A DNA stretch of 64,000 nt from an uncultured Chlorobiota bacterium (lineage in GTDB: Bacteria > Bacteroidota > Ignavibacteria > UBA10030 > UBA6906). The position numbers and the translations under genes are program-made. The stretch spans positions 1-64,000 of the forward strand of contig CAADGV010000012.1 of NCBI GenBank assembly GCA_900696645.1, given 5' to 3'. Below, in pieces: positions 119 to 60,748 of this stretch. The notes beneath the pieces were generated by a model. It ran no database searches, was not told the DNA's origin, and saw only the letters and a list, made by a program, of their open reading frames with translations. The first letter of the stretch is position 1, and every line of letters begins with the position of its first letter.

Positions 119-2782
119 CTATCGCAACAACAAAAGCTTCTTTGTCTCTACGAAATCTCCGGCTTGCAAACGATAGAGATACACGCCGCTGGCCATTCTG
201 GCAGCGTCCCAAGCTACTCTATGAATGCCGGCAGAAACAGTTTCATTAATAAGAACTGCGATTTCTTGGCCGAGTGTGTTGTAGATTCTCAATGATGCGT
301 GCCCGGCTTTCGGTAAGGCAAATGCGATGACTGTGCTTGGATTGAAGGGATTGGGATAGTTTTGCCTCAATGTGTATGATGTCGGCTTTCCAAACGACCA
401 ATCGATTCGTGGAGTTGCTCCCTTATAGAGGATGGTACCGATTGGAATTGCACCATGAGGTATCAACTGTTGACTGTTTACCATTTCAGCAAGATCTTTT
501 GCACGCTCGTCATTTGCCGGATCTTGATCACCGAGCAAATAGGAAACGTAGGTCAACACGTCGCCTGCATTCCGGCCATCAGCCGACACAACAGTGTATT
601 GGCCAATCTTCTCGGATACGAGATTCAGCACGAATGACGCTAGATGCGCTCGCGCCCGCAAAAACATGGTGGCGTTTCCTTTCTGGCTCAGGACTGTCTG
701 CCAATCCGCAAAACTCTCCTTTCCGTTAAAGTATCCAAAATGCGGCGAGTAATGTTGATGAATGAGAGACACATACGCTGACAATTGCTGTGCAGTTTCT
801 TGGCCACTCCCTCGGCCGGTTACTTGTACATCAAATTGATGCTTCCAGTATCCAAATCCGCGTGCACTGTTTTCCAAAACCGTCGGTATGAGCTCAAAGT
901 CAACTCTGCTTTCCGCGCCTCCTGCCACGTTGACGTGTTTGGGATTCAGGTCAACGGAAAACCCCAAAGGCTCAATCAGCATGATATGGTAATCCCCGGC
1001 AGCAACATCACCAAACAAATATCTTCCATTGTTGTCCGTGGGAAACGGATCAAATGAATTGACAGGTAACCCCTGAGCGTCAAGGAGTTTGACGGTAACC
1101 CCTTGCAATGGTTGTCCGCCAGAGGTAACCGTTCCGGTGATCGAACCTGGAACAGCTATGGAACGCAATTCAAGCTTGCTTAGCACATTTGCAAAGAACG
1201 GAGGGATACTACTCCTCTGAAACACGTAAATCAAAAAGGGGTCTGACGGATCCTGTATCGAAGGTTCGTGTACAAAGGAAGCGGGTAGTTGACAATTCAA
1301 TGTCACCATCACATCATTCGAAATATCGTACTTAAAGAGATGTGCAGGTGATTCTTCGTCAGGAATGAAGTATATGGTGTTCTCCGCTTCAACATACCAT
1401 TTCTGGATTGCCAATACGACACGCCGGGCAGGATTAACGGCAGCTCGCTGCTGCACCACTTGTGTAACCGGATTGAAACGTTGCACGGGCGTGTGCCACC
1501 GAGCGGGGCTCCAGAAATAAATCCAACCGTCGGATGCAAGTGTGGGCGAAACCCACGTCGCGGGTTGAAGCATTTCTGCAACTCGTACGAGATCATTTGT
1601 GGTAGGATCGAATTCAAATATACCGGTCTGGTCAACTCCGGTATGACCTCCGAAGTAGTAGATCTTCCCATTTGCCGCGCAGTTGCCAAGATTCCATATA
1701 GCTGAAAAAGGAAAATGGGCCACTATGGTCGCAGCTCCGGCTGCGATATCGACTTTGATCAGTCCGTTTGTGCTACCCCATCCGTTTGAGTTACCTGCTG
1801 TGTGACCCGGTGGCAGATAGAACGCGTTCCCGATTCGGGCCGCTGTCACACCAGCATCGACATTGACATAGGGAAGACGGAAAGGCAGTTGACTCCATGT
1901 TCTGGACACAAGATCGAAAGTAAGAATTGCATCTGTGCCCTGAACGAGACTTGACCCGGTTGGAATTCTCACGCCAAAGACAAACACCTTGTTGTCGAAC
2001 ACTTCATTACCCGGGATGAACCAATGAAAAGTTGGATCTAGCGAAGCATCGATTGGCGTTACATCGACCGGCGTTTCACAGGTTCCTTGATGAGAACCGG
2101 AAGACAAATTGCTGATTTCGTTTTCCTGTAACGGTCTGTCGTAAATGACAATATCATCAACCTCTCCAACAAAACTTGACATCACAGTCACAAAATTTCC
2201 GATATATAAGGTTGTGCCGGCAGGGGTATTTAGGCTAAGGACTGAAGATGCGCTCAGAAGTCCGTTTATGAAGACTCGTCCAATCGCACCGTCATACGTA
2301 AAAGCGACGTGATGCCAGTTGTAGTTGGCAAGTATCGTCGTCGAAGCAATGTCATCCCCCCAGCCCCAGAATCCCGCAAGTTGACTGGGCTGATTTCCCA
2401 ATCCAAGAACAAGCGCAGACATTCGGCTGAGAGTATTCGGCGTGCCCCACCCGCAAAGGAATCTATTGCCAACGTCAAAATTGGAACTCCGAACCCACAT
2501 TGCTATTGTACGCGGACTATTCCCGATCGGCAAACCTACAGTAGGAGCAGTCAGATACCCTGTTGAATGGACTGCCACTGCAGCTGAAGGATTTCCAAAC
2601 CTGTCCGCCACAAAAGTGGGGTTGCCAACGGCACTTGCGTGATTTCCAATACCGCTTTGATCTAGCAGACCGTTGTTGAAAGGATAGTGCGCAACGAGAC
2701 CATTCGTGGGAACTTGAGCCAACGCTGTCATTACAAGCATTGCGCACAGGGAGAGGAACTGAGTTAATCGAGAGAGTGTCAT
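119..2782 (-). CDS. T9SS-secreted LamG / beta-propeller / carboxypeptidase-regulatory-like protein (D1)
   Basis: Large secreted protein of 887 aa. The first ~22 residues form a signal peptide ending ALAQ. Residues ~28-228 look like a LamG/concanavalin-type domain (LYIGNF, EVDDIVIYDRPL near its end). Residues ~235-535 read as Kelch-like beta-propeller blades. A carboxypeptidase regulatory-like beta-sandwich follows (GSITGTVTSGGQPLQGVTV, ~548-636), then a segment starting GFGYWKHQF whose function I do not know. Residues ~802-887 are a type A T9SS sorting domain (NYPNPFNPST, then GVYLYRL). The product should be exported by Sec, passed through the type IX system and anchored or released at the cell surface. 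A GGGGG ribosome-binding site precedes the ATG. It lies 185 bases downstream of, and parallel to, the Lon-like membrane protein gene; the right-hand copy of the locus has a propeller/T9SS gene in the same place. Ligand unknown. Confidence 0.85.
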   Translation of the reverse strand: MTLSRLTQFLSLCAMLVMTALAQVPTNGLVAHYPFNNGLLDQSGIGNHASAVGNPTFVADRFGNPSAAVAVHSTGYLTAPTVGLPIGNSPRTIAMWVRSSNFDVGNRFLCGWGTPNTLSRMSALVLGLGNQPSQLAGFWGWGDDIASTTILANYNWHHVAFTYDGAIGRVFINGLLSASSVLSLNTPAGTTLYIGNFVTVMSSFVGEVDDIVIYDRPLQENEISNLSSGSHQGTCETPVDVTPIDASLDPTFHWFIPGNEVFDNKVFVFGVRIPTGSSLVQGTDAILTFDLVSRTWSQLPFRLPYVNVDAGVTAARIGNAFYLPPGHTAGNSNGWGSTNGLIKVDIAAGAATIVAHFPFSAIWNLGNCAANGKIYYFGGHTGVDQTGIFEFDPTTNDLVRVAEMLQPATWVSPTLASDGWIYFWSPARWHTPVQRFNPVTQVVQQRAAVNPARRVVLAIQKWYVEAENTIYFIPDEESPAHLFKYDISNDVMVTLNCQLPASFVHEPSIQDPSDPFLIYVFQRSSIPPFFANVLSKLELRSIAVPGSITGTVTSGGQPLQGVTVKLLDAQGLPVNSFDPFPTDNNGRYLFGDVAAGDYHIMLIEPLGFSVDLNPKHVNVAGGAESRVDFELIPTVLENSARGFGYWKHQFDVQVTGRGSGQETAQQLSAYVSLIHQHYSPHFGYFNGKESFADWQTVLSQKGNATMFLRARAHLASFVLNLVSEKIGQYTVVSADGRNAGDVLTYVSYLLGDQDPANDERAKDLAEMVNSQQLIPHGAIPIGTILYKGATPRIDWSFGKPTSYTLRQNYPNPFNPSTVIAFALPKAGHASLRIYNTLGQEIAVLINETVSAGIHRVAWDAARMASGVYLYRLQAGDFVETKKLLLLR

Positions 2783-2967
2783 TCAGACCCCCAAGGTATG
2801 TGATGGATGAATGTGAGATGTGTCTCTCTAAATCTTCCTCCCGCTTCCAAATGGTTGCAGAAAACCTACGAAGAAAAATCTTTGAGAGGCCGTAGGGCTA
2901 CCCGGAGTGGGTACTGCAGAATTTCGAATGATACAAATTTGCGGTGAGATCTTGTGTGATCACAGGG

Positions 2968-5319
2968 CTATGGCGTAGTCGCCGCCCTTGCCTGCCACCC
3001 CTCCCCATCCCAATACAGCAACGTTTTCATGAACTGTTGCAGATATTCATTGCGGCCAAGGTCGGGGAGTTGTTTCTCTTTGAGGTGGTAGTCATACAGT
3101 GCATCGAAGTTGTCGCCGGATGTGATACCGATCGGTGTGAACTTGAAATCCATAATAAGATCAAAATCCGCGGAGACCTGTTCGTTGGGGGGACCGGTAA
3201 CACTGTATACGTCTGTGACAAGCAGACGAATCGACTGTTTTTCGGGTTCCACAGCAATCCACCTGCCCAGGTTGTACTTTGCCACGCGCTCATACAACGT
3301 TCCCAACACAGTCCGTGGAATTCTCACGTATGCTCTTTCCTTTGCCGGGGGGTATTCTGTAGGAATGTAGTCACCTGTTGTCGGTGAAACCCCGTTCATG
3401 TCACGGGGATCCAACACGACAAGACAGGCATTCTTGAATGCATTGTTCACTCCGCAAAGGAGTATCTCCTTGATGCCGTCCCCGTCAAGGTCCCACACCC
3501 GCATTCCTGCCAGATGGCCGAGGTGCAGATAGTGGCCAAGTTCCTTACCTGTTGAGGCATCCAGCCGGTATACGAGATTCGGGAAGGCAAGGTGCGCTGC
3601 CGATACGACCACCTCCAACCTGCCGTCGTTGTCGCAATCGTCGACGATCAACCTTTGTGCTATAAACTCCGGGCTGCTTACATCCGTGCTGCGGGGAAAG
3701 TCAAGTGTTTTTGAGGTGGAAAATGACCAGATGGAAGAATCTTTCCCGATCTTTCGGGCGTTGATGGTTGTCGCGCTTGATAAGCCTTCATGTGAAAACT
3801 GCGACAAGAAGATTTCGTTCTGACCGTCCCCGTCAACATCAGCAAATGCTATAGGCGGACCCCCCGGAAGTACACTTTTGAAGAAGTTTACGGTCCTCTC
3901 TCCCACATGCATCTCCTCTATCGTCTGATCGCTTTTGTTCTTGATCAGAACCACCTCTCCGCTGAATTCGCAGCCGACGGGATTCTTGTCGAGAGGGCCG
4001 TAGCCGAGCCTGAACACTGCAACAACGAGGGCAAGAAGAACAACGGCGGTAATCGGACGCCTCCGCTTCCAGACGCGGTGTACCGCATGTCGCGGCCAGG
4101 AAATCCTGACCGTTTCCGCTGTACGCCGGTCGTAGAATACTTCCCTCAGATGGCTCACACCGATCAGTGCGGGATTGCGGCGCGGATACTTCATCTGAAG
4201 CATCTCCACTGCTTCCTCGGCCAGTTGTAATTGCTGCTTTGGAACAACGAGGCATTCGGTTTTTGAAAAAAACACTGCGGCCACTTTTGCTGCAATTCCC
4301 TCCGGATCCACGGCCAAAACTTTCCCATCCGCATCAAGTACTCCCGTCAATGCGGCAGTCGGACGCATGTGAAGCCGCACTCTCTCGTATGCAAAGCGTA
4401 GTATGGCGGAATACACAAGTGCGGCAATGGCAAGACCTGCCGAACTCCCTTCATGCAACTCGTGTTTCCCTTCAATCACAACTTGTGCATTGATGAACGG
4501 GCCGGAAAGCCCCGGGCGGGCCTGCTGAGCGAACTTTCTCGCCGCAGCCGCGGCAAGGTCCACGCTGTAAGACGAATGTTCATCAACACCGTACACGGCT
4601 GCGTCTGTATGAACCTGATCGCGTTGCTCACTCGCTGAACCTAAAACGTTCAGCGATACTCGACGAAGTCCGCCAATCGCCTCTGACTGATCTGGATCGA
4701 AAATGCGTCGTTCAACAACGGGAACGAGAACCGATTCATCCCCCCGCCGGGAATTCTCGATGGACTGAATAAGTTCCGCAAGAAGTAGGTGTATGGAAGG
4801 AGCCGACTTTTCAGCTTGAGCAAGGGTATACCTCAATTGTCCCGGCAGAGGCAACTGTTCATTCGCCTGTAACGAAGCATACCAGGCACTTGCCTCGAAA
4901 CCGCCAAGCAGAGCAAGAGCTTTCTCGAGTTCGCCGACATAGACATACTGTCGTGCCGCGTCAAGTTGTAGTTGAAGCAACGCTTCGCTGAAACCATCCG
5001 GCAAAATATCGCTCTGAAGCGCTTCCGATATGCAAGCAAGTTTCCCATGCAGCGTGTGCAGCAACAAAGGATCTGTTCCGGCAAATTCCGCTTTTAAGAC
5101 AAACTCGGGGATATACTGCAAGATTTCCGTAGCGTACGTTTGGAACCAACCTGCATCATGGTCGGAAGTATCAAGAAATGCAGCGATTGAGAACAAACGC
5201 TGCCGGGCAGAGGCGGGAAATGAGAGGGTTGTGAGAAGTCGCTGGAATCTTCGCTCGGTTTCGACCGGGTCGGGTTTGGCAGCGTGATGACCTGTTCCTT
5301 TGGATGCGGGTGAATTCAT
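2968..5319 (-). CDS. Membrane protein with cytoplasmic Lon/S16-like protease domain and FG-GAP repeats (C1, dyad intact)
   Basis: 783 aa from the preferred ATG at 5319, which overlaps the stop of the upstream gene as ATGA; an in-frame ATG at 5367 is possible but would overlap by 52 bases. Residues ~1-200 are mainly helical and unassigned. A Lon-type proteolytic domain follows: GSSAGLA places the nucleophile at Ser293 and GIAAKVAAV places the general base at Lys345, aligning with GPSAG and LKEKL of Lon. There is no AAA+ ATPase domain. A basic stretch (WKRRRP) precedes one membrane helix at ~423-440, predicting N-inside topology. The outer part carries FG-GAP/VCBS-type acidic loops (DVDGDGQNE, CDNDGRLE, DLDGDGIKE). 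It is the third gene of a set behind a zinc-finger anti-sigma-like protein and an unknown protein. Inference: the extracytoplasmic propeller senses and the cytoplasmic protease acts on the neighbouring partner. No described protein of this layout is known to me. Confidence 0.75.
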   Translation of the reverse strand: MNSPASKGTGHHAAKPDPVETERRFQRLLTTLSFPASARQRLFSIAAFLDTSDHDAGWFQTYATEILQYIPEFVLKAEFAGTDPLLLHTLHGKLACISEALQSDILPDGFSEALLQLQLDAARQYVYVGELEKALALLGGFEASAWYASLQANEQLPLPGQLRYTLAQAEKSAPSIHLLLAELIQSIENSRRGDESVLVPVVERRIFDPDQSEAIGGLRRVSLNVLGSASEQRDQVHTDAAVYGVDEHSSYSVDLAAAAARKFAQQARPGLSGPFINAQVVIEGKHELHEGSSAGLAIAALVYSAILRFAYERVRLHMRPTAALTGVLDADGKVLAVDPEGIAAKVAAVFFSKTECLVVPKQQLQLAEEAVEMLQMKYPRRNPALIGVSHLREVFYDRRTAETVRISWPRHAVHRVWKRRRPITAVVLLALVVAVFRLGYGPLDKNPVGCEFSGEVVLIKNKSDQTIEEMHVGERTVNFFKSVLPGGPPIAFADVDGDGQNEIFLSQFSHEGLSSATTINARKIGKDSSIWSFSTSKTLDFPRSTDVSSPEFIAQRLIVDDCDNDGRLEVVVSAAHLAFPNLVYRLDASTGKELGHYLHLGHLAGMRVWDLDGDGIKEILLCGVNNAFKNACLVVLDPRDMNGVSPTTGDYIPTEYPPAKERAYVRIPRTVLGTLYERVAKYNLGRWIAVEPEKQSIRLLVTDVYSVTGPPNEQVSADFDLIMDFKFTPIGITSGDNFDALYDYHLKEKQLPDLGRNEYLQQFMKTLLYWDGEGWQARAATTP

Positions 5320-6164
5320 TGGTAGAGACAGATCCGGATCTCTGTGGCCGACCGATCCATCGCGCATCGGCCGGTACCGGATTCAAGATGGACGAGCACC
5401 TTGTGTCTGCCTGAAAAATCCACCAGCGCTCGTGTGTACTGTGAGGTTTCTGCGATAATGACGAGTTCCTCGCCTTCCACATACACCTGTACGGTTGTCA
5501 TTGCATCGACGCCGCTTATGCATACAAGTGGCCTTTCGTTGCTTGCTGACAGAAGCTTCTGTGGTGCTACAGGAAACTCCAGCACTTTCAGATGCAGCAC
5601 AGGCTTGAGCGTGTTCCACTCGGTATGCATCAACGAGTCATTCAACCCGACGACGACACTGCCGTTCTCATCCGTGACAAAATCACTCGCCAGTTCGGAA
5701 AAAGAGACGATGCTGTACGCCCCCTGGTCCATTTCCAAACTTTGAACGCTCAACCGGAGCGTTTCTGTTTTTTTGTCGTGCGTGACACGAAGAACCGTAT
5801 TCTCCGACTGCGATGCGTACGTGGCAATCGTGTGGAAACGGTACTTGTGTTGGGGCGTGGTCATCGCCGCAAGGACTGTTGTGTATTTGCTGCCTGCTGT
5901 CTCGGGCGACGGACCCGCGTGAAAAGGAACAAGCGGAATGACAGTCGCTGTCTTGAACATCTCTCCGATAAATTCGCCGATTTTCCCCTGATCCTCATAC
6001 GACAGCGAGTCCATCTCATCATGAATGGATTGCAGAAAGCTGAGTCTCTCCCTGCATGCAGGGCAGGCTGAGAGATGTTCTTCTATCGGACGTACTTCCT
6101 GACCTCCCATCGTATCGCGGTGGAGGATGAAGCGCTCGAGTATGTCTTCATGAATGTGTTTCAT
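5316..6164 (-). CDS. Soluble protein with N-terminal anti-sigma-type zinc-binding motif (B1)
   Basis: 282 aa. The N-terminus has the layout of zinc-binding anti-sigma (zf-HC2/ZAS) domains: His5, then His30-x3-Cys34-x2-Cys37 (EEHLSACPACRERL). The rest (~60-282) is beta-rich and shows no recognisable domain. I see no membrane helix, unlike most ZAS anti-sigma factors, so it is probably cytoplasmic. It is 47 bases behind the A1 gene and overlaps C1 by four bases (ATGA), so translational coupling with the Lon-like protein is likely. By context it is a candidate anti-sigma or adaptor that holds A1 and is a substrate or partner of C1; this is inference. The paralogue on the other side of the IS element (10567-11394) keeps the same zinc ligands. 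Confidence 0.7.
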   Translation of the reverse strand: MKHIHEDILERFILHRDTMGGQEVRPIEEHLSACPACRERLSFLQSIHDEMDSLSYEDQGKIGEFIGEMFKTATVIPLVPFHAGPSPETAGSKYTTVLAAMTTPQHKYRFHTIATYASQSENTVLRVTHDKKTETLRLSVQSLEMDQGAYSIVSFSELASDFVTDENGSVVVGLNDSLMHTEWNTLKPVLHLKVLEFPVAPQKLLSASNERPLVCISGVDAMTTVQVYVEGEELVIIAETSQYTRALVDFSGRHKVLVHLESGTGRCAMDRSATEIRICLYQ

Positions 6165-6211
6165 CGCACAAAAGTAAATTCCTCACGGTGATATGTGTTC
6201 GCGGAAAAAAT

Positions 6212-7222
6212 TCACAGTTCTCTCTTCATGCTGTCAAGAAATTGTCTTCGGGTAACCTTCATGAGATATTCAAGATAAACCCTGTGCACGGCCCGGTATG
6301 ATTCGGGCGACAGATCGCCCATATAGCGCGCAAGGTGTTCAAAGAACGAACCGTCCTGCCGGCTATCGTTGACAAACTCGTCATGGAGTATCGATTCAAC
6401 CGCCCGGAAGTACGCTTCATAGGTGTCTTCGCCGAGTTTTCCTTTCTCGACGTATGACGGCCTCATGGATGTCTTGACAGCAGCGATTGTCTCTGAGATT
6501 TGTCTGGCGACGTCATCTTCGCCTAATTCCTGACAATCCCGCTGGACTTCGGCGGAAATATCGCGCAGCCTGGAAAATACCGCTCGAACACTATGCGCCA
6601 GACCGAATAGCGGATACGAACGCCGGTATGTTGACTGCTCGGTAAACACGTTGCGCAAAGCTGTCAGGATTTCTTTAGTATTGGCAGATTGAGAAACCAC
6701 AGGCGAAATGAATGCTTCGAGAATTTCCGCTGGCATTACGGGTCGGTGGACTTCCTCAGGGAAACCCGCACAGAAGTGCAGCCACGTTACACTGCTTCTT
6801 GTTTCAAGGGAGATGGTAGAGTCTGACGCTGCCGCATCCTTGAGATTACGGATGATCTTGTGCAATCCCGGGTCAAGTTCACGGTATTGGCGATAGAGAT
6901 CCTGGGTAATTTTGCTGAACACAAGCCGCCTCGATAACGCCATCAACTCATCATCGCTGAGTGATGAGTAGTTCAGATTGATGTAGTACGTTTGCAGCTC
7001 GACAAATGCTCCGCGGGCATCACGGCAGAAAAGTTCTGTGATGCAATCAAAGGCAACATCTTCAAGGGGGATGCCGAACAGACCCGGGTTAAGACTGCCG
7101 GATGACGCTTTCTTGCGAAGGTAAACGATAGCAAACTTGTGGAACAATGCGATAAGGTCCCTGACAGCAGACTGGGAAGGACAATCGGAGACAACCGATG
7201 AAATGACTTCAAGCATGCGCAT
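6212..7222 (-). CDS. Unrecognised conserved protein, first gene of left set (A1; possibly sigma-like)
   Basis: 336 aa, soluble, helix-rich, and clearly related to the 339-aa product at 9512-10531 (shared DxAFDxIxELFxRDAxGxF near residue 60, IIRN near 125, QSTYRR near 200, a Y(V/I)xxGKL element near 265 and the KREL-type C-terminus). I do not recognise a catalytic motif. The segment from ~60 to ~130, with an acidic helix, an aromatic patch and ...IIRN, is reminiscent of sigma-70 region 2, and the next gene has an anti-sigma zinc motif. A very divergent sigma-like factor is therefore the best hypothesis, but the sequence alone does not prove it. It is the first gene of an operon-like series with B1 and C1. 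The start at 7222 lies within ~100 bases of the IS110 transposase stop, so its native promoter may have been replaced or trimmed by the insertion. Confidence 0.6.
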   Translation of the reverse strand: MRMLEVISSVVSDCPSQSAVRDLIALFHKFAIVYLRKKASSGSLNPGLFGIPLEDVAFDCITELFCRDARGAFVELQTYYINLNYSSLSDDELMALSRRLVFSKITQDLYRQYRELDPGLHKIIRNLKDAAASDSTISLETRSSVTWLHFCAGFPEEVHRPVMPAEILEAFISPVVSQSANTKEILTALRNVFTEQSTYRRSYPLFGLAHSVRAVFSRLRDISAEVQRDCQELGEDDVARQISETIAAVKTSMRPSYVEKGKLGEDTYEAYFRAVESILHDEFVNDSRQDGSFFEHLARYMGDLSPESYRAVHRVYLEYLMKVTRRQFLDSMKREL

Positions 7223-7288
7223 GAGAAGGCGCCAACCCCTGTGGACGATGATCTAATATAGGAAGTCGGACATCAATTCGCCACATGA

Positions 7289-7308
7289 ATCGCCACCCCG
7301 CAGGCGAT
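7289..7308 (-). terminator. Small hairpin just past the transposase stop
   Basis: ATCGCC at 7289-7294 pairs with GGCGAT at 7303-7308 around an 8-base loop. It sits 12 bases beyond the end of the transposase gene and may be the transposase terminator or part of the IS right end. There is no clear T-tract. Confidence 0.35.
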
Positions 7309-7319
7309 CCCTCAAGCTA

Positions 7320-8633
7320 CTAATGAACCACAGCTGGTTGAATAGTCATACCCAGTTTGCGAGCCTGTTTTTCAAGGTTATGGAGAAGATGTTGTTGATA
7401 GCGTTCCTGATAACGCTGCAGTCCTGTTTCAACAAAGTGGATGCCCTTGGTCATAATGTTGTAGAAAATAACGGCGAGTTTGCGAGCGACAGCTTTCATC
7501 GCTACGTAGGGGCCGCGTCGAGCTTTGACCCGACGGTAAAAAGCACCTAAGGCGAGGTGTTTGCTTTTGGCCACACTCTGCGCGGCAACACGAAAGATCT
7601 GTCCTACCCGGGTCACGGTTTTCCGATTGCGGCGTCGTGTGCTTTTGCCGGATTGTTGCATGTTGGGTGCCAGTCCCGCCCAGGCAACAAAATGCTTTTC
7701 GCTTGGCCAGGCGGTAAGGTCCGTTCCGATCTCAGCAGTTAACTGCAGCAACGAAAGGTCGGTGAGTCCTGCCATGGCAACAGGATTCTTCCCGCCTGTC
7801 ATCTTCATGAGCATCTCATGGAGATGATCCACGGCAAGCTTCTGATGAGGCTTGGCCGGGCTCTGCAGTGATGGTGTCGGCAAAGGCTGTGTAATGAGCG
7901 AGAGGAGCTTTTCGATCGCCTTGTCGCAGGCAAGAATCTGTTGCTGATAGAATTCCCAGCATTCCACGGCTTGGCGCAGTGCAAACAGGTGCTCTTCTCG
8001 ATAGTTACCATGAAGCGAGGCAAGAACCTCAGCATGTTTCTTTGCTGCAATTTGACAATCGAGCAACGTTACGAGGGTGTCCGGATTGTGTTCCCCGGCA
8101 ATGATCGCTTTCAGAATGCGCATGCCACTGACGCCGTTCAGCTTTGAGATCACATTATGCAGTTTGACATTCATGCGCTCCAATGCTTTTTGCATATGTT
8201 GGATATGTTGTGCTCCCATCGCGACATGCTCGCCCCGGAGGCGGACGTAACTGCGCAGACGCCGAATGGCGTCGGGAGGAATGAAGGAGGAACGCAGTAA
8301 TCCATGAGCGTGCAACTCTTGAAGCCATTGACAATCGGCGACATCGGTTTTCCTTCGGGAGAGACTCTTGACGTCGGCTGCATTGATCACGTACGCCTCG
8401 ATGCCGCTGGCTTCCAGCATGTCATAGAACGAAAGCCAATAGATGCCGGTTGCTTCCATCGCTACTGTGGTGATGCCATGCTCGCGCAAATAGACGATGG
8501 CTTCGTGGTACGATTGGGTGAACGTAGGAAAGGATTTGACCTCTTGACCGGAGATCCCGACGAAAATACGTTCACTCCCAATATCAATACCGGCAGCATG
8601 ATCACGGATCTTAACAATTGATTTCTTTGGCAT
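7320..8633 (-). CDS. IS110-family transposase (bridge-RNA-guided DEDD recombinase)
   Basis: 437 aa from an ATG at 8633 with GGAG eight bases upstream (a TTG at 8645 would add four residues). The N-terminal RuvC-like DEDD domain shows Asp17 (AGIDIGS), Glu60 (AMEATGIYW), Asp97 and Asp100 (KTDVADCQW). A central coiled coil follows. The C-terminal Tnp domain has GLTDLSLLQLTAEIG, AGLAP and the serine of QQSGKS (Ser328), the expected nucleophile of the family. Length is typical and the frame is intact, so the enzyme may be active. Family knowledge: IS110 recombinases insert and excise through an RNA made from the non-coding end of the element. Here the long non-coding stretch is on the 5' side (8634 upward), as in the IS110 rather than the IS1111 subgroup. 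The element lies exactly between two divergent paralogous gene sets. Confidence 0.92.
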   Translation of the reverse strand: MPKKSIVKIRDHAAGIDIGSERIFVGISGQEVKSFPTFTQSYHEAIVYLREHGITTVAMEATGIYWLSFYDMLEASGIEAYVINAADVKSLSRRKTDVADCQWLQELHAHGLLRSSFIPPDAIRRLRSYVRLRGEHVAMGAQHIQHMQKALERMNVKLHNVISKLNGVSGMRILKAIIAGEHNPDTLVTLLDCQIAAKKHAEVLASLHGNYREEHLFALRQAVECWEFYQQQILACDKAIEKLLSLITQPLPTPSLQSPAKPHQKLAVDHLHEMLMKMTGGKNPVAMAGLTDLSLLQLTAEIGTDLTAWPSEKHFVAWAGLAPNMQQSGKSTRRRNRKTVTRVGQIFRVAAQSVAKSKHLALGAFYRRVKARRGPYVAMKAVARKLAVIFYNIMTKGIHFVETGLQRYQERYQQHLLHNLEKQARKLGMTIQPAVVH

Positions 8634-8639
8634 AACACT

Positions 8640-8900
8640 CTCCAAGGTGAATGGTGATGGAATGGATGACTACCCCACGCACACCGAAGGTGAAATGGAA
8701 GAGTAAACTACTAAGCGGGATCAACCAGTCCATGAGACCAGATGTCACCAATTGACAAGTCACAAGCTTCGGAAACAATTCTCAACCACGAGCATACCGC
8801 ATCAAGGCTTAGGTCTGTTATTTTGCGCGCAGGTAAACCCATTTATGATGCATCCTTCGCAGTTCATTATCAACGACTAACTGCGGCAACGCCGCTGTAG
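8640..8900 (-). ncRNA. Candidate bridge RNA region of the IS110 element
   Basis: About 260 bases upstream of the transposase with no open frame on either strand. In the IS110 subgroup the left end between the element border and the transposase start is transcribed into the bridge RNA with target- and donor-binding loops. Position and orientation fit. I have not folded it, and no guide/target match is shown, so this is a positional prediction only. Confidence 0.4.
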
Positions 8901-8992
8901 GATTCTCAACCTCATCCTCATCCTGCTTCACCCTCTAAACCTAATCTCTTCGACACCAACGGCCACAGGCCCGGAGAGCAGGAACCGAGGCC

Positions 8993-9160
8993 ATGCTGTT
9001 TGCCATCAAACACGCGGCAACCACCGGACGCCTTTTCTCGATCGGGCAGAGCATGAGCAAAGGCGTGAACGCTAAGCGCATCACTGCTGAACAAGCCGAC
9101 AGGGTAAAGAAAGCGATTCAAGAACGAAACACGCAACTTGCCCAGCAGAAAGCGGCGTAG
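8993..9160 (+). CDS. Possible 55-aa gene remnant
   Basis: A 55-codon frame, Ala/Gln/Lys-rich, ending AQQKAA, with a helical tail (ITAEQADRVKKAIQERN). It is followed 10 bases later by an inverted repeat that could be its terminator. No clear ribosome-binding site and no family recognised. It may be the 3' end of a decayed gene or spurious. Confidence 0.2.
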   Translation: MLFAIKHAATTGRLFSIGQSMSKGVNAKRITAEQADRVKKAIQERNTQLAQQKAA

Positions 9161-9169
9161 TGCTACACA

Positions 9170-9200
9170 CATCCGGGCAGGAGGCAATCCCGCCTGGATG
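9170..9200. repeat. Imperfect inverted repeat
   Basis: Thirteen-base arms (CATCCGGGCAGGA and TCCCGCCTGGATG, 11 of 13 pairing) around a GGCAA loop. There is no T-tract. It could be a hairpin terminator for the remnant frame before it, or a fossil end of a mobile element. Confidence 0.45.
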
Positions 9201-9241
9201 TTCATGTTCATTGCATTCGCTTTCCTTGACACGTTGAAACT

Positions 9242-9262
9242 CATGTCCGTGATGCGGACATG
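9242..9262. repeat. Short perfect inverted repeat
   Basis: CATGTCCG and CGGACATG, eight perfect pairs around TGATG. Function unknown; it could be an operator for the right-hand set, although it lies 250 bases upstream of the A2 start. Confidence 0.4.
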
Positions 9263-9511
9263 ATGCGCTTTCTGCCGTTCGACAGCTTTTCGTTTCTGAA
9301 TAGGTGCGGACCAGGTCTCTAAGCCGAAATCGTTTCGTTTATGAGATGGCTCAACAAAGCGTCCTGCCCCAACAACTGAGTTCCCCGGTCCATCATCCCG
9401 TCTACCTTGCTTGTCCAATCAGCCTTTTGTATACTCTTCCTGTGGGGAGGACTTACCTGATACTATCCGGCGGCGAATGACCCACACGCATCGTACCTGT
9501 CTCCGGTCGGC

Positions 9512-10531
9512 ATGAACGACAATAATTTGCGCAACATTTTGTTCTCCGTGGCTCGCGGAAAACCGAACCGTTCCGACGTTTCGGCTCTGATTCGTGTGTG
9601 CCACGATATGGCCAGGGCTTATCTCCATGCGAAAACAAACTCCGGAAAATTCGATCCGTCACGGTTTGGACTGACAATCTCCGATTTTGCGTTCGATGCT
9701 ATTGCCGAGTTGTTCCGGCGCGATGCAAGCGGTACGTTCCTGGCACTCAAGGCGTTCATACAGCGGTTGCCGACTCCTGCTGACTTGTCAGAAGCCGCCG
9801 CAGAGAACGAACTGCGGCGCATCGTGTTCAGCAGCGTCAACCAACGGATCTTTCGCGAATACGGGTCGTACGATCCTTCACTCTCCAGAATCATTCGCAA
9901 CATCAAGCTCGCCGTCCGGCGACACCCGGCAGCCGCATCCTGTGAACGCTTCAATGAACTGATGATTGTCCCCAAAGAAACAACGGACTTTCTCGAAAGC
10001 CATCCGGCAATATCTCCCGAAATCCTCTCGCCCGAACTGAACCGCCGGATGCCGCAGAAGCCGAGCTTGAAGGATATGCTCACTGTACTCGTTGAAATCC
10101 TCAATGACCAATCGACGTACAGAAGGATGATTTCCGTTGTAGAGGCTGCAATTCTCTTCCGCACGGAGTATGCTTTGGGGTACGCCGCAGAACTTACACC
10201 ACAGACGGAGGAGGGTCTTTCCGTATCAGAACTGTCACGGTTCATTGATCAGGTTGTGCTCTCTCTTGAACAGCGTCACTCTGATTTTTATGTGTCACGG
10301 GGGAAGTTGAATGCGGACGAATACTCGGCACACATAAGTGCTGTGCGGCAGATTCTCACTTCCGAGTTTGTCTCGTGGGACGGAGATGCGAAAACGTATT
10401 ACCAGATAATGCAAGAGCGCATTTCCTCTCTGACACCTGATGAGTACAAAACGAAACACCGGATGATTCTCGAATATCTGGCGAAAACTGCACGGAAAGA
10501 GTTGGCCACACTCGTAAGAAAGGAGCTGTAG
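9512..10531 (+). CDS. Unrecognised conserved protein, first gene of right set (A2; possibly sigma-like)
   Basis: 339 aa, paralogue of the 6212-7222 product. Shared landmarks include DFAFDAIAELFRRDASGTF (~57-75), SRIIRNIK (~130), DQSTYRR (~205), a Y(V/I)xxGKL element and a C-terminus ending KEL. Helix-rich and soluble, with no enzyme motif seen. The region around 55-135 has the feel of sigma region 2, which together with the downstream zinc-finger gene suggests a divergent sigma-like or sigma-binding role; confidence in that is low. It leads a set with 10567 and 11466 in the same order as the left set but on the opposite strand. A TATACT box lies ~80 bases upstream. Confidence 0.6.
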   Translation: MNDNNLRNILFSVARGKPNRSDVSALIRVCHDMARAYLHAKTNSGKFDPSRFGLTISDFAFDAIAELFRRDASGTFLALKAFIQRLPTPADLSEAAAENELRRIVFSSVNQRIFREYGSYDPSLSRIIRNIKLAVRRHPAAASCERFNELMIVPKETTDFLESHPAISPEILSPELNRRMPQKPSLKDMLTVLVEILNDQSTYRRMISVVEAAILFRTEYALGYAAELTPQTEEGLSVSELSRFIDQVVLSLEQRHSDFYVSRGKLNADEYSAHISAVRQILTSEFVSWDGDAKTYYQIMQERISSLTPDEYKTKHRMILEYLAKTARKELATLVRKEL

Positions 10532-10566
10532 AATCTGCTGAACCACGAAAATGCAACGATGAGTAT

Positions 10567-11394
10567 ATGGGAGATATGAACGAGGGACATTATACTGAAG
10601 ACCAGTTGGCTGAATTTGCAAGAAGCGGCGGACACGAGGCGGACGAACATCTCGGTACATGCGCCGTATGCAGATCCCGATTTGAGTTTCTTGACGCATT
10701 CTACCGTTCGTACCGGCAGGAAAGCAAGGAACCTGCTTCAGACCAGCTTGACCGGTTCATTGCCCTGCATACAGTGCCGAATGTGATCGAACTGAAACCG
10801 TATGCGCCACTTCCCGACGTTCATGCCATGGGAGCGGGCGACCACATGCTTGTTCTGGCAGCGCAGGATAGCATCACGGATGAACTTCCAATCCGCACAG
10901 AGGCGACGTTTGCCAACAACGATCCGAACATACTCGTCCGTGCGGTGCGGGATGAGATACGAAAGAACTATACGATTCACGTCTTGTCCGAAGTTCAAGA
11001 AATCGCCGGTAACGTTATCGTATCGATCAAAGAGGCCGACGGGAACGTCATCACGCTTGTGACAACAAAAACCGGAATGGCAGCATGTGAACATCCGTCT
11101 CCCATTGCGTGGAAATCGAGTGTAGTGACGATCATGAAACCGTCAGCGGTCTTCCCGTTAGAGAATCTTGGCATAGGAGAAGGCAGGCTTGCCTCGGAGG
11201 GATTTATCCTTGAGGTGACAACGGACGGAAAACTGTGGAACTTCTCTCTTCCTAAACGATTCCCGGAGCCGATCACCCGGGCCGGAATTGTGAAGTCAGA
11301 CGGGAAATGCACGCTGAAAGATGTCATCTCTGGCAAGTTCACTCTTGATGTTCAGGAAGCCGAGGATGCAGTGGAGTTGAGATTGTTCAGCTGA
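10567..11394 (+). CDS. Soluble protein with N-terminal anti-sigma-type zinc-binding motif (B2)
   Basis: 275 aa. His8 and His28-x3-Cys32-x2-Cys35 (DEHLGTCAVCRSRF) reproduce the zf-HC2/ZAS motif of its left-hand paralogue. Residues ~70-275 are beta-rich, without a known domain and without a membrane helix. An in-frame ATG at 10576 is an alternative start. The gene is 35 bases behind A2 and 71 before C2, so co-transcription is likely. Candidate cytoplasmic anti-sigma or adaptor for A2 (inference from motif and order). Confidence 0.68.
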   Translation: MGDMNEGHYTEDQLAEFARSGGHEADEHLGTCAVCRSRFEFLDAFYRSYRQESKEPASDQLDRFIALHTVPNVIELKPYAPLPDVHAMGAGDHMLVLAAQDSITDELPIRTEATFANNDPNILVRAVRDEIRKNYTIHVLSEVQEIAGNVIVSIKEADGNVITLVTTKTGMAACEHPSPIAWKSSVVTIMKPSAVFPLENLGIGEGRLASEGFILEVTTDGKLWNFSLPKRFPEPITRAGIVKSDGKCTLKDVISGKFTLDVQEAEDAVELRLFS

Positions 11395-11465
11395 GTGGGG
11401 AAGACAGGGTCTCTCCGAAGTTCCAGCCCTGAACTAACATTCGTTACCCAAAGGCAATTCCTCCC

Positions 11466-13637
11466 ATGCCCGACCCTCTTCTCATCGAGCAGCAATACCA
11501 GATGCTAAAACAATCGTTGGGATTGCTCGCCAGCAGACGCATGAAGCTCCTCCGGATACTCCAGTTTGCCGAGCCGCTGTTGGAAAGCGACAATAGTTCA
11601 TTTCTTCCCGCCTATGCACAGGAACTTCAGCCCGGATTGACGGGCGCGATTCTTCGAACGGAACTTACCGGAACTCCGCTTCACTTCGTTGACCGTCTGC
11701 TTCGTTTACTCGACGTGATGCAATCACAGTACAGTGAGTTGGTTGACATGCCCGCATGCGCAATGGCTGCGCAACGTCTCACCACTTACCGTGATGAACT
11801 CACAGCCATCCTCCAATCTGCCGATGATGAAAATCTCGCTGAGAGGCGAGAGAATGTTGCTTCGGGTGTCGTGTGGATTCCCCTCGTGGAGCGGGAACCT
11901 CTCTTGCCGGGCATCAAACCGGAGTTCGGTTCTCTGCAGCGTCTGAAAGTTGAGGTTTCTTTCGCTCGCCGCCGCGGCGGTAAAGATGAGCTGGTTGTGG
12001 TGAACTTCAGCGACCGGACAGGCGCCGGGCAACAACTCCTCGGCCCTGCCCTCGAGGCGGCAAAGCATCTGCTCAAAGTTTTTACGCGAATTGACGTTCG
12101 GCAGGCACTCTCAATCCGGTGCTGGTTCTCAGATACAAATGTCGTTGTGGGAGAATCTCTGGAGGCCGGACTCGCAGCAGCGATATTCACCGAGCTTGTG
12201 CGCCTGTTTCAGTATCGCGAAGAGTATTTCCTCCGGGATGATCTTGCCATCACGGGCAAAGTGGATTCGTTGGGGCGCCTTGTTCCGGTAGATGAAGAAG
12301 GCCTGAGGTTGAAAGTGGAATCATGCTGTTACTCGCCGCTCAAATACCTTGTCGTGCCCAAGGAGCAGGAAGAAATCAGCACATCCTTCATTACAGCCGG
12401 GAACCTTCACATCATCGGCGCTTCAGATCTTTCGGAGATATTCTACAATCGCAGACTTACACATACAAAACATGTTTCTGCCATCAAGCAGACTGCCCGC
12501 AAGCTCTGGAAGCAGAGGCGGCCAATCGCAGTGATTACCTTTGCCGTTCTTTTGGTCGCTTTGGCAAAGTTGTGGTACGGGCCGATTAACCGGGAACCTA
12601 CTGCGATAGACTTCAATGGAGAGATGATGCTCTTCAAGAACAAGCATGGTGAAACTCTTGATGCATACGACCTCGGATGGAACCTCCCGCAATTCACACC
12701 TTTGGATCCTGTGAAGTATTTCATAGCGTTACTGGATGTTAATGAGGATGGACTGAAAGAAGCGATATGGATCCAGCCGGGATCACCTGATGGCAGCGGC
12801 TCGTGGATTGTTTGCTGCAAAACAATCCGGGAAGATACGCTACGTTGGAAAGTGTCACTCAGACGCAAGATTGTCTTTCCTCATCATGGGGAGATGTCGG
12901 AAGATTTCAGGGGCCGATTCATGTACGCAGGCGACTTCGATGCCGACGGCAAACCGGAAGTAGTCCTTGTTGCATTCCACGATCATTTCCCCTCTTACGT
13001 TGTGAAGCTTGATGCATCAACGGGGGAGACATTGTCCACGTACGTTCACGCGGGACATTTGTTGTACGGGGCCGTTACCGACCTTGACGCAGACGGCGTT
13101 CAAGATATTCTGATCAGCGGCATCAACAATGCCTACAACGAAGCATGTCTGATCGTGTTTGATGCGCGTTTCATACAGGGGCACGGGCCTGTTACGGAAA
13201 CCTATCGGGTGGAAGGCTTTGAGCCGGGCCCCGAACGCGTATACATTCTCTTCCCGAAGACTCTCGTGGGCAAAGCAGTCCCACGAGAGCGCCATAACAG
13301 GGGCGACAGGATTGACATTTACCCTGACACCAGAGAATTCCGCATCGGTATAAACGATCAGAGTGAGGATCAGCAATATTTGGGGAAGATATACGGACTG
13401 TTCGGATTTGACTTGGCTCCAAAATCCTTCACGACGGGCAGCGACTACGACGTATCCGCCGCCCGGCTTCTCTCCGAAGGTCGCATCCCCCTCTTCCCCG
13501 ACAAGGCGTACTTCGAGGAGTTCAAGAAGACGTTGCGTTACTGGGATGGGACGGGGTGGAGGAATGAGGTTGCGGCCAACAAGGGATACCTGCAAAAACT
13601 GAGGAAATTTGAAGTTGCCGTACCGAAAGGGAATTAG
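11466..13637 (+). CDS. Membrane protein with Lon/S16-like domain and FG-GAP repeats (C2, catalytic Ser replaced by Glu)
   Basis: 723 aa, same layout as C1: helical N-terminal part, Lon-like domain (~150-325), one membrane helix (~353-371) after KLWKQRRP, then FG-GAP/VCBS-type loops (DVNEDGLKE ~424, DFDADGKPE ~490, DLDADGVQD ~539). The Lys of the dyad is kept (GLRLKVES, Lys283), but the nucleophile position reads SLEAGLA, with Glu233 where C1 has the Ser of SSAG. The domain is therefore expected not to cleave, and may bind substrate instead, unless Ser231 or another residue takes over. The C-terminal halves of C1 and C2 are closely related (LDASTG, GHL, INNAY/VNNAF, then YWDGxGW at the end). 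A terminator follows 40 bases later. Third gene of the right-hand set. Confidence 0.75.
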   Translation: MPDPLLIEQQYQMLKQSLGLLASRRMKLLRILQFAEPLLESDNSSFLPAYAQELQPGLTGAILRTELTGTPLHFVDRLLRLLDVMQSQYSELVDMPACAMAAQRLTTYRDELTAILQSADDENLAERRENVASGVVWIPLVEREPLLPGIKPEFGSLQRLKVEVSFARRRGGKDELVVVNFSDRTGAGQQLLGPALEAAKHLLKVFTRIDVRQALSIRCWFSDTNVVVGESLEAGLAAAIFTELVRLFQYREEYFLRDDLAITGKVDSLGRLVPVDEEGLRLKVESCCYSPLKYLVVPKEQEEISTSFITAGNLHIIGASDLSEIFYNRRLTHTKHVSAIKQTARKLWKQRRPIAVITFAVLLVALAKLWYGPINREPTAIDFNGEMMLFKNKHGETLDAYDLGWNLPQFTPLDPVKYFIALLDVNEDGLKEAIWIQPGSPDGSGSWIVCCKTIREDTLRWKVSLRRKIVFPHHGEMSEDFRGRFMYAGDFDADGKPEVVLVAFHDHFPSYVVKLDASTGETLSTYVHAGHLLYGAVTDLDADGVQDILISGINNAYNEACLIVFDARFIQGHGPVTETYRVEGFEPGPERVYILFPKTLVGKAVPRERHNRGDRIDIYPDTREFRIGINDQSEDQQYLGKIYGLFGFDLAPKSFTTGSDYDVSAARLLSEGRIPLFPDKAYFEEFKKTLRYWDGTGWRNEVAANKGYLQKLRKFEVAVPKGN

Positions 13638-13676
13638 GGGGCGATAGAACTGCGTTAGACATACCTGCGTATGGAA

Positions 13677-13706
13677 AGCCGGACAAAAAATTGTTCGGCT
13701 TTTTTT
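13677..13706 (+). terminator. Intrinsic terminator after the right-hand A-B-C set
   Basis: GCCGGACAA and TTGTTCGGC pair (one G-T) around AAAA, followed by a run of seven T. It separates the membrane protein gene from the next secreted protein gene, so the latter needs its own promoter. Confidence 0.85.
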
Positions 13707-13779
13707 CTGCGGAGAACCTTCCTGCAATGATTCTGTTGTGTACCACCCACACAGCATTCACCATCACAAGGAGGTTTGT

Positions 13780-15087
13780 ATGAATTACTGGATCAAATTC
13801 TTCTCGTTTGTATTCAGCACTGCAGTTTGCCAGCAAGTACTGGCTCAGCCATTCCAATGGCAATCAACGACACCACTTCCGATTGCCAGATCATTCCACT
13901 ACAGCTTTGCCCACAATGGTAGAATGTATACGCTTGGTGGAGCCCAATTCGGAGGCGGACAGAATGGGTCAACGCATTTTGCGGAAATAAACCCGGATCA
14001 TACATTAGGGCCGTGGACGGTAACAACGAATCTCGGAAACGATTTGTATCAATTCGGAGGAGCATTTGATCCTGACAGCGCTTGGGTATATGTGGTTGGT
14101 GGCGTCACGCATGGCGGACCGCTGACCGGCAGCCAGTTTGCAAGAGTGCAAGGAAATGGTACTCTAAGCACATGGACGTCTACAACGGCAATGCCGAGTG
14201 GAAAGACCGGACAAGGAAGTTGCCTTTATCGCCGAGTTTTGTACCAAATTGGGGGGTATCTTTCAAACAGCACTTCGGTGTACTACGCATCGATATTGTC
14301 GAATGGCCATCTCTCTGCATGGCTCACGACTACCTCCTTGCCCGAACCATTGGCCTTCACGTACTGTGTGGCATTCAATGATCGGATGTATGTTTTTGGC
14401 GGGCACACAGGAACTACTGTAAGCAACAAAGTGTATTTTGCCCCCATCAATGCCAACGGCTCACTCGGCACATGGACAATGACAACTGCACTTCCTGATT
14501 CGTTACATGGAATTGCAGGATATGTGAGCGGGGACAGTATTACAATCACTGGTGGGGCAGGCGCGACAATAACCACATCTGCAATTTACCGGGCTAAGTT
14601 CCAGCCTAGTGGCGGCGTAGGCACGTGGACCTATGTTGGTGATCTCCCCGTACCCGCTGCGCAACATGAGATCGTCAAGACAGCTGCAAAAGTCTACACA
14701 CTTGGTGGCGAAAACCATATCTCTGGCTACTTAAACAGAGTGGCTTTCAATCCGCCAAATCCGAATGCAGTTGTTGATGGAAATTCTCGACAAACTCCCC
14801 CAAGAGACTTCTTAATTTCCCAAAACTACCCCAACCCCTTCAATCCGTCAACTACCATCGACTATCAACTACCAACGAACAGCCACGTTACTCTCAAGGT
14901 GTACGATGTGCTTGGCCGTGAAGTCGCCACAGTAATAAATGAGATACAAGAGGCAGGGCACAAGTCGGTGAAGTTCGATGCCGGCCCCCTGGCCAGCGGA
15001 ATCTACTTCTACAGGCTGTCCGTTCGGACTCCTTCGGGGCAAGCCGGACATCTTGTCGCAACTCGAAAGCTGATGGTTATCAAGTAG
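13780..15087 (+). CDS. T9SS-secreted Kelch-repeat beta-propeller protein (D2)
   Basis: 435 aa from the ATG at 13780, chosen because AAGGAGG lies six bases upstream; the in-frame ATG at 13738 lacks a site. Signal peptide of ~22 residues ending VLAQP. About six Kelch-type blades follow, each with a YxxGG or VFGG turn and a W-x(T/S)-x(T/S)-x-LP strand. The last ~85 residues are a type A T9SS sorting domain (QNYPNPFNPSTT, GIYFYRLS). Predicted to be exported and displayed at the surface; ligand unknown. It follows the right-hand Lon-like gene in the same orientation, as the LamG/propeller gene follows the left one, but a strong terminator separates it from that gene. Confidence 0.88.
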   Translation: MNYWIKFFSFVFSTAVCQQVLAQPFQWQSTTPLPIARSFHYSFAHNGRMYTLGGAQFGGGQNGSTHFAEINPDHTLGPWTVTTNLGNDLYQFGGAFDPDSAWVYVVGGVTHGGPLTGSQFARVQGNGTLSTWTSTTAMPSGKTGQGSCLYRRVLYQIGGYLSNSTSVYYASILSNGHLSAWLTTTSLPEPLAFTYCVAFNDRMYVFGGHTGTTVSNKVYFAPINANGSLGTWTMTTALPDSLHGIAGYVSGDSITITGGAGATITTSAIYRAKFQPSGGVGTWTYVGDLPVPAAQHEIVKTAAKVYTLGGENHISGYLNRVAFNPPNPNAVVDGNSRQTPPRDFLISQNYPNPFNPSTTIDYQLPTNSHVTLKVYDVLGREVATVINEIQEAGHKSVKFDAGPLASGIYFYRLSVRTPSGQAGHLVATRKLMVIK

Positions 15088-51464: not shown

Positions 51465-51727
51465 AGTACAATCCTTGGAGATATTGTTGGGGAAATGTGA
51501 TTACGAAGTGTAGCAATGATAGCGGATTTCGTGTTTTCAAGCAAGCGGATGAAGAGAATTTCAGAAAGCCCGCGAAGTGAAGTGCATCACTCTCCTGCGC
51601 CTGCATGTTGAATGGGCAGGTCGATTTATCTACATTCGAACAGTGCACGATTCGCAAATCAGGTCAAGGCACGCGGATTGTTGCCAACCTCGACTGTGTT
51701 CGCACAACCACGCAAGAGGAATCTTCC

Positions 51728-55837: not shown

Positions 55838-56466
55838 TTCGCATACTTATTGCCGATGACCACGCAATGGTGCGTGAAGGACTCAAGAAAACGCTTGGCG
55901 AAGAGCCCGACATGTGTGTTGTCGGAGAGGCGAAGGATGCACGCGAAGTTCTCTCGCTTGCTCGTGACGTTCCCGCCGATGTTCTTGTTCTCGATATTTC
56001 CATGCCGGGCGAAAGCGGACTGTCGATCTTGCACGATCTTTCAAAGACTGCAAGGCACTTACACGTTCTTATTCTCAGCATGCACCCCGAGGAACGATTT
56101 GCCGTCCGCGCATTGAAGGAGGGCGCATCCGGTTATCTGACAAAAGAATCCGCTCCGCACGAGCTTGCCATGGCAATCAGAAAAATTGCCTCCGGCCGGA
56201 AATACATCAGCACAGGGTTGGCAGAAAAACTGGCCGACGGATTGCAAGCGGGCACCACTGCGCTACCGCACGAACTCTTGTCAGAGCGCGAATATGAAGT
56301 GTTTCTACAGATTGCCTCAGGCAGGTCTGTAAGTGATGTTGCAAACGCCCTTTCATTAAGCGTTCCTACTATCAGTACACATCGCAGGCGTATTCTGGAG
56401 AAGATGCACCTTCGCACGAATGCTGAGATTATCCAGTATGCGTATGCCAACAAGCTGATCCATTAG
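55834..56466 (+). CDS. NarL/FixJ-type response regulator
   Basis: 210 aa. Receiver domain with Asp54 (VLVLDISMPG), acidic pocket IADDH and conserved Lys in YLTKES. A C-terminal LuxR-type helix-turn-helix (LLSEREYEVFLQIASGRSVSDVA...TISTHRRRILEKM) binds DNA. Cognate of the preceding kinase by overlap (ATGA). Confidence 0.94.
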   Translation: MIRILIADDHAMVREGLKKTLGEEPDMCVVGEAKDAREVLSLARDVPADVLVLDISMPGESGLSILHDLSKTARHLHVLILSMHPEERFAVRALKEGASGYLTKESAPHELAMAIRKIASGRKYISTGLAEKLADGLQAGTTALPHELLSEREYEVFLQIASGRSVSDVANALSLSVPTISTHRRRILEKMHLRTNAEIIQYAYANKLIH

Positions 56467-56681
56467 CGGAAAGCATGCCCGGTTTCGCTGTAACCAGAGT
56501 ACGTACTTAGCAGCATCGGGCAAGTCCATTCTGCCAAATCGTCATCAGCGATATCGCTGTCAGCGGTATGATGATCTGTAAATCATACTCCCGACTATGC
56601 CTGCCACGACTCCCGTTCACTATCTTTCCGGTACATCTTTCTGCCGTGCGGCAGAAAGTCAAAGTTCGTAATGGGGGAACG

Positions 56682-60730: not shown

Positions 60731-60748
60731 ACACATGGCGCGACACGT

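Follow-up and report, generated by a model that had tools for sequence, protein, structure and literature searches.

Two face-to-face gene sets of an uncultured Chlorobiota bacterium encode a conserved signalling module with a putative sigma-like factor, an anti-sigma-type protein and a predicted membrane sensor-protease

A 64,000-nt stretch of DNA from an uncultured Chlorobiota bacterium (contig CAADGV010000012.1, positions 1-64,000, assembly GCA_900696645.1; the whole stretch is called the window below) carries two sets of three genes, A, B and C, arranged in the identical order A-B-C (Table 1), and the signalling module that these genes appear to encode is the subject of this report. The products are related pair by pair: A1 and A2 are 31% identical over their full length (E 5e-49), B1 and B2 27% over the N-terminal 164 amino acids (aa) (E 2e-11), and C1 and C2 33% over 492 aa (E 8e-77) in pairwise comparisons. 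The original prediction, which was made from the letters of this DNA, had described mirror-image A-B-C-D sets; all eight open reading frames (ORFs) were found where it had placed them, and A, B and C are homologous and in the same order, whereas D1 and D2 are not orthologous. C1 likely starts at the ATG at 5319 rather than at 5367; that ATG overlaps the stop codon of B1 as ATGA, which, if it is the true start, is a sign of translational coupling.

Table 1. Genes and features of the two gene sets and their surroundings (window positions)
Feature	Position	Strand	Remark
A1, putative sigma-like factor, 336 aa	6212..7222	-	residues 1-116: predicted sigma region 2-like helical domain
B1, soluble anti-sigma-like protein, 282 aa	5316..6164	-	N-terminal zinc anti-sigma domain and beta-rich-looking C-terminal domain
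B1 zinc motif Hx3Cx2C (H30, C34, C37)	6054..6077	-	
C1, membrane sensor-protease (activity predicted), 783 aa from ATG at 5319	2968..5319 (ORF extends to 5367)	-	
C1 Lon (S16) active-site stretch	4285..4443	-	Ser 4441-4443, Thr 4345-4347, Lys 4285-4287
C1 transmembrane helix	4000..4053	-	KRRR at N-terminal (inner) side
C1 FG-GAP propeller region	2998..3960	-	predicted outside
A2, putative sigma-like factor, 339 aa	9512..10531	+	
B2, soluble anti-sigma-like protein, 275 aa	10567..11394	+	
B2 zinc motif Hx3Cx2C (H28, C32, C35)	10648..10671	+	
C2, membrane sensor-protease (activity predicted), 723 aa	11466..13637	+	
C2 Lon active-site stretch	12156..12314	+	Ser 12156-12158, Thr 12252-12254, Lys 12312-12314
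C2 transmembrane helix	12525..12578	+	
C2 FG-GAP propeller region	12618..13580	+	predicted outside
D1, type IX secretion system (T9SS)-tailed secreted LamG/kelch protein	119..2782	-	possible module output, outside core
D2, T9SS-tailed secreted kelch protein	13780..15087 (ATG start; GTG start at 13738)	+	possible output
IS110-family transposase	7320..8645	-	judged incidental

The unit recurs outside the window. A profile built from the A pair detected A in 32 of 60 relatives, and a 49-member alignment detected it in 55 of 392 sampled Bacteroidota genomes; a pattern search from an 11-row subset of the alignment gave 21 A loci, all in Bacteroidota-type records, and the named records with A include Ignavibacteria, Melioribacter, Balneolaceae and Rhodothermaceae. 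No A was found on plasmids. When the neighbourhoods were read, most A loci were seen to have A beside B and C or beside a fused anti-sigma/FG-GAP protein. In the first arrangement, that of the window and of several other lineages, A is followed by B and then C. The second arrangement is the most frequent one in this order and is present at most Ignavibacteria-type loci: the gene after A encodes a single fused protein of about 470-500 aa, whose N-terminus is of the zinc anti-sigma type and is joined to a membrane helix (near residue 105-120) and FG-GAP repeats, and which has no Lon domain; a third A copy of this genome, on another contig, has such a partner. The third has a short B (about 175 aa) after A, with C located elsewhere in the genome or just upstream; the majority of the short-B genomes also carry C, often directly upstream as C-A-B. 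The fused protein thus ties the parts of the module together, and its profile was found in 31 of the 32 A-positive relatives (60 relatives, Fisher p 1.4e-13), a test that covers both the split and the fused arrangement because the profile also matches C via the common FG-GAP part. In a sample of 198 genomes, C was matched in 23, and every one of these also has A. In most of the lineages that were examined a separate B accompanies a Lon-type C; the fused form is without Lon. The original prediction was to fall if A, B and C proved not to occur together elsewhere, or if A and B matched unrelated housekeeping families; neither turned out to be so, and the unit was found together, free of IS110, in many Bacteroidota.

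In a tree of 104 A proteins (support given as ultrafast bootstrap and the SH-like approximate likelihood ratio test, SH-aLRT), those that go with B and C form one clade (95 and 82, respectively) holding no fused-type member. A1 and A2 fall into two separate, well-supported subclades of this clade, each with relatives from other genomes, and therefore the pair in the window is not a recent inverted duplication; the window holds two old, separate modules placed face to face.

Some loci show other combinations of the parts. In one relative (G383:C24:10044-23499) a lone A has four C paralogues upstream of it, all on one strand, as if several sensors fed one A. Locus L165 (G235:C2) has three A genes in about 15 kb with a C-like protein between them and no recognised B, and at L216 (G141:C14:386000-396000) C is nearly full-length and keeps its Lon dyad, and neither A nor B was recognised next to it. 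The fused-type partners at L217 and L070 have a doubled FG-GAP part and reach about 820-860 aa versus 470-500. In the genome of the window itself, L091 (about 7673-8204 of G000:C21) matches weakly the first 70 residues of C only, either as a relic or by chance.

Judged from its sequence, C is a single-pass membrane protein with an FG-GAP propeller outside and a Lon (S16) domain inside, for which protease activity is predicted. A profile of 24 C sequences matches archaeal Lon protease (E 1.2e-7), and the few invariant columns of that alignment include the Ser and Lys of the catalytic dyad (S309 and K361 in C1) and a neighbouring Thr. All three residues are kept in 32 of 32 full-length C homologues, distant ones included, and the constancy of the Ser-Lys dyad at low overall identity indicates selection for catalysis. 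An apparent loss of the catalytic serine from C2 was rejected as an artefact of a two-sequence alignment, since the 24-sequence alignment shows the Ser in both C1 and C2. The 24 C proteins gave no match to an AAA+ domain, and no SAVED domain was matched in the C proteins, which carry the FG-GAP propeller instead. A hydropathy scan gave one helix in 18 proteins and a second candidate helix in 6. Lys and Arg residues before the membrane helix outnumber those after it in 24 of 24 proteins, a positive-inside pattern that places the Lon domain inside and the propeller outside.

B is without a membrane helix in 36 of 36 sequences, and profile comparison identifies in it a class-I anti-sigma domain. 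Domains of this class are N-terminal, about 100 aa long and often marked by Hx3Cx2C, they mix zinc and zinc-less forms, and their known targets are sigma factors (PMC7406223). The Hx3Cx2C motif is present at the N-terminus of B in Ignavibacteria-type sequences and the zinc ligands are missing in other lineages; the H, C and C are invariant in 26 fused partners. Against anti-sigma proteins of the same genome, the B N-terminal profile scored 96% in hhalign (E 2.4e-9) and the fused partner profile gave E 7.6e-9, and the two profiles match each other at 99% (E 2.6e-18); these matches stand well clear of shuffled decoys, with a score of 49 for the fused partner against the anti-sigma set and of at most 16 for shuffled-column decoys. 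In this genome six of the zf-HC2 proteins have sigma70_r2 genes nearby, whereas B1 and the fused partner that goes with the third A copy have A as their neighbour, so that A occupies the place where one would expect a sigma gene. B ends in a domain that is beta-rich by eye and has no known relative; this domain is present in the lineages with a Lon-type C and not in the fused form, and we suspect that it is the protease-facing part.

The other parts of the module belong to known kinds, and its most interesting question is the nature of A. The predicted structures of A have a pLDDT (predicted local distance difference test score) of 91.7 for the whole protein and 93.4 for residues 1-135. In structural alignment of the N-terminal domain, sigma factors are the top four of 282 chains (Z 5.5-6.3): the SigE N-terminal domain aligns over 78 of 78 residues at 2.8 Å, and the other three matches are what we take, from the entry titles, to be the whole sigma factors SigH, SigI1 and SigB. 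The next chain follows at Z 4.4 with a root-mean-square deviation (rmsd) above 9. With the whole A model sigma factors are again the top three matches, and helical factors, lambda Q among them, align with its C-terminal part (residues 234-336). The N-terminal domain of A is thus predicted to fold like sigma region 2, and it is structure prediction and gene context, not sequence, that make A a putative sigma-like factor. A PADLOC search with A returned nothing, and no sigma model is among the Pfam families listed for 49 A members at E<=1.

The D genes stand outside the core. The similarity of D1 and D2 is limited to the T9SS sorting tail (46% over 95 aa) and some fragments of kelch repeats, and D was accordingly rejected as a fourth member of the unit; it is a recurrent type of neighbour, namely T9SS cargo, and not a conserved orthologue. 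T9SS-tailed genes make up 14 of 70 next genes downstream of the unit versus 29 of 625 elsewhere (p 2e-5) in a comparison unmatched for operon position or taxon, and this enrichment makes D1 and D2 plausible outputs. The IS110 transposase that had been predicted in the gap between the sets is real, the sole one found in this genome, and no part of the unit: an equal scan found IS110 at 0 of about 100 other A loci, for which reason it was rejected as an organiser. The roughly 870 bases between it and A2 (8646-9511) contain no convincing gene. Elsewhere in the window (51605-61966), the translations point to a separate signalling cluster, in which two long PAS-domain sensor kinases precede two proteins of the response-regulator/HD type.

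Systems of comparable logic are known. RpoE/RseA and SigW/RsiW consist of extracytoplasmic function (ECF) sigma factors and membrane-bound class-I anti-sigma factors, with release by regulated intramembrane proteolysis. The present module resembles them in the N-terminal cytoplasmic anti-sigma domain, often with Hx3Cx2C and encoded beside its target, and the fused form also in having one membrane helix and an outside sensor domain; it differs in that A lies outside the sigma70 family by sequence, and that the split form has a soluble anti-sigma protein and a membrane protein with its own Lon protease domain. Of the known systems, CalpL/CalpT/CalpS of type III CRISPR comes closest; there the Lon protease CalpL, equipped with a SAVED sensor, cleaves the anti-sigma factor CalpT and so releases the ECF sigma factor CalpS (PMC11417357, PMC12751052). 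The likeness would lie in the freeing of a sigma factor through the action of a sensor-bearing Lon-type protease on its anti-sigma factor. Here sensing would fall to an FG-GAP propeller in the periplasm, on the far side of a membrane helix, whereas CalpL has a SAVED domain that binds cyclic tetraadenylate (cA4), and A, unlike CalpS, is not recognisable as an ECF sigma factor by sequence, the sigma part being assigned by predicted fold. Among the window ORFs that were read no cas genes were noticed, no systematic search for them having been made. In a literature search for FG-GAP or Lon with anti-sigma factors CalpL was the only relevant match, the rest being unrelated; the original remark that the unit could not be matched to a described system has to be amended for this partial match. 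Of the Lon families, LonB is membrane-inserted and LonC is without ATPase activity (PMC3391209). C is like them in its Ser-Lys dyad and its profile match to the archaeal Lon protease domain, and differs from LonA and LonB in having no detected AAA+ domain and a protease domain that precedes a membrane helix and an FG-GAP propeller.

Starting from the homology and linkage of the genes, the anti-sigma domain with its zinc motif, the Lon dyad, the topology pattern and the predicted sigma region 2-like fold, we infer the binding, signal, cleavage and transcription steps of a three-part transmembrane signalling system, to which we give a probability of about two in three. A would be a highly divergent sigma-like transcription initiation factor, and B its cytoplasmic class-I-type anti-sigma factor, holding it at rest. 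C would sit in the inner membrane with its propeller facing the periplasm and the Ser-Lys protease of its N-terminal half in the cytoplasm. A signal on the propeller would alter the assembly of C and activate the Lon domain, the activated domain would cut B, perhaps via the C-terminal domain of B, and the freed A would move to RNA polymerase, with likely outputs that include the neighbouring T9SS-secreted surface proteins. In the fused form the same logic would be carried by two proteins, and A would have to be released in some other way, perhaps by conformational change or by other proteases. The original prediction that C senses outside, acts on B inside and frees A finds support in the architecture, i.e., the uniform topology of C, the invariant dyad and the anti-sigma domain of B, from which such action may be read; that A-B-C is a real, conserved signalling module following this mechanism in outline is well supported.

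Several results weigh against this proposal. Protein A has no match in Pfam, NCBIfam and PDB profile searches, in hhalign it scores no higher against the sigma proteins of this genome than shuffled decoys do, and Foldseek alone, run with the A models against PDB and viral structures, gave nothing significant. The structural Z values of A (5-7) are in the middling range by the aligner's own guidance; together with the failed sigma profile comparison, this leads us to say that A may work like a sigma factor and not to claim it as a member of the sigma70 family. In the anti-sigma comparison part of the score is built in because the segments were cut around the zinc motif. The charge pattern that places the propeller outside is less clear in the fused proteins (35 of 52), and since fused-type partners work without Lon, Lon proteolysis is not the sole way to free A. 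On the output side, the T9SS comparison has the lack of matching given above, and a promoter motif common to the regions upstream of the A genes was looked for and none was found.

In one alternative, which we regard as unlikely, the Lon-like domain of C spares B, serving as a docking platform or cutting A or another substrate, and a conformational change frees A, as is presumably the case with the fused form. Partners devoid of a Lon domain speak for it; the dyad invariant in all full-length C proteins, and the pairing of a separate B with Lon-type C, speak for a protease that cuts and for B as its substrate. Somewhat less likely again, A could be another DNA- or RNA-polymerase-binding regulator, antiterminator-like or TFIIB-like, held by an anti-sigma-derived partner, with B and C as in the sigma-like model. 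Structural alignment does match the C-terminal half of A to the lambda Q antiterminator (4mo1; Z 6.7 and an rmsd of 3.7 over 95 residues) as well as to TFIIB-type factors, and A carries no sigma sequence signal, but the best structural matches of its N-terminal domain are all sigma factors, and its partner is of the class-I anti-sigma type, which is known to target sigma factors (PMC7406223). That the two sets arose by chance or by IS110-driven duplication and have no special function, as the IS110 element between them might suggest, is refuted by the survey, in which dozens of genomes have the unit with no IS110 and in more than one gene order (several were seen), and by the age and separateness of the A1 and A2 lineages.

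With the sigma-like reading of A, a further proposal can be made, tentatively and at slightly short of an even chance: A may found a new, sequence-undetectable family of initiation factors governed across the membrane by a one-protein sensor-protease (propeller outside, Lon domain inside) that destroys the anti-factor directly. Such a system would offer, in one step, an alternative to regulated intramembrane proteolysis and would be widespread in Bacteroidota. The split form with a protease and the fused form without one would, should the mechanism hold, be a natural pair for studying how such circuits evolve, and the module would be a guide to what to seek where an anti-sigma domain adjoins no recognisable sigma gene. 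If the proposed mechanism is true, the Calp-type logic, in which a sensor-Lon protease cuts an anti-sigma factor, would extend beyond CRISPR immunity to envelope sensing, and about one in seven of the sampled Bacteroidota genomes would hold a sigma-like factor overlooked by annotation, with its own route from the outside to transcription.

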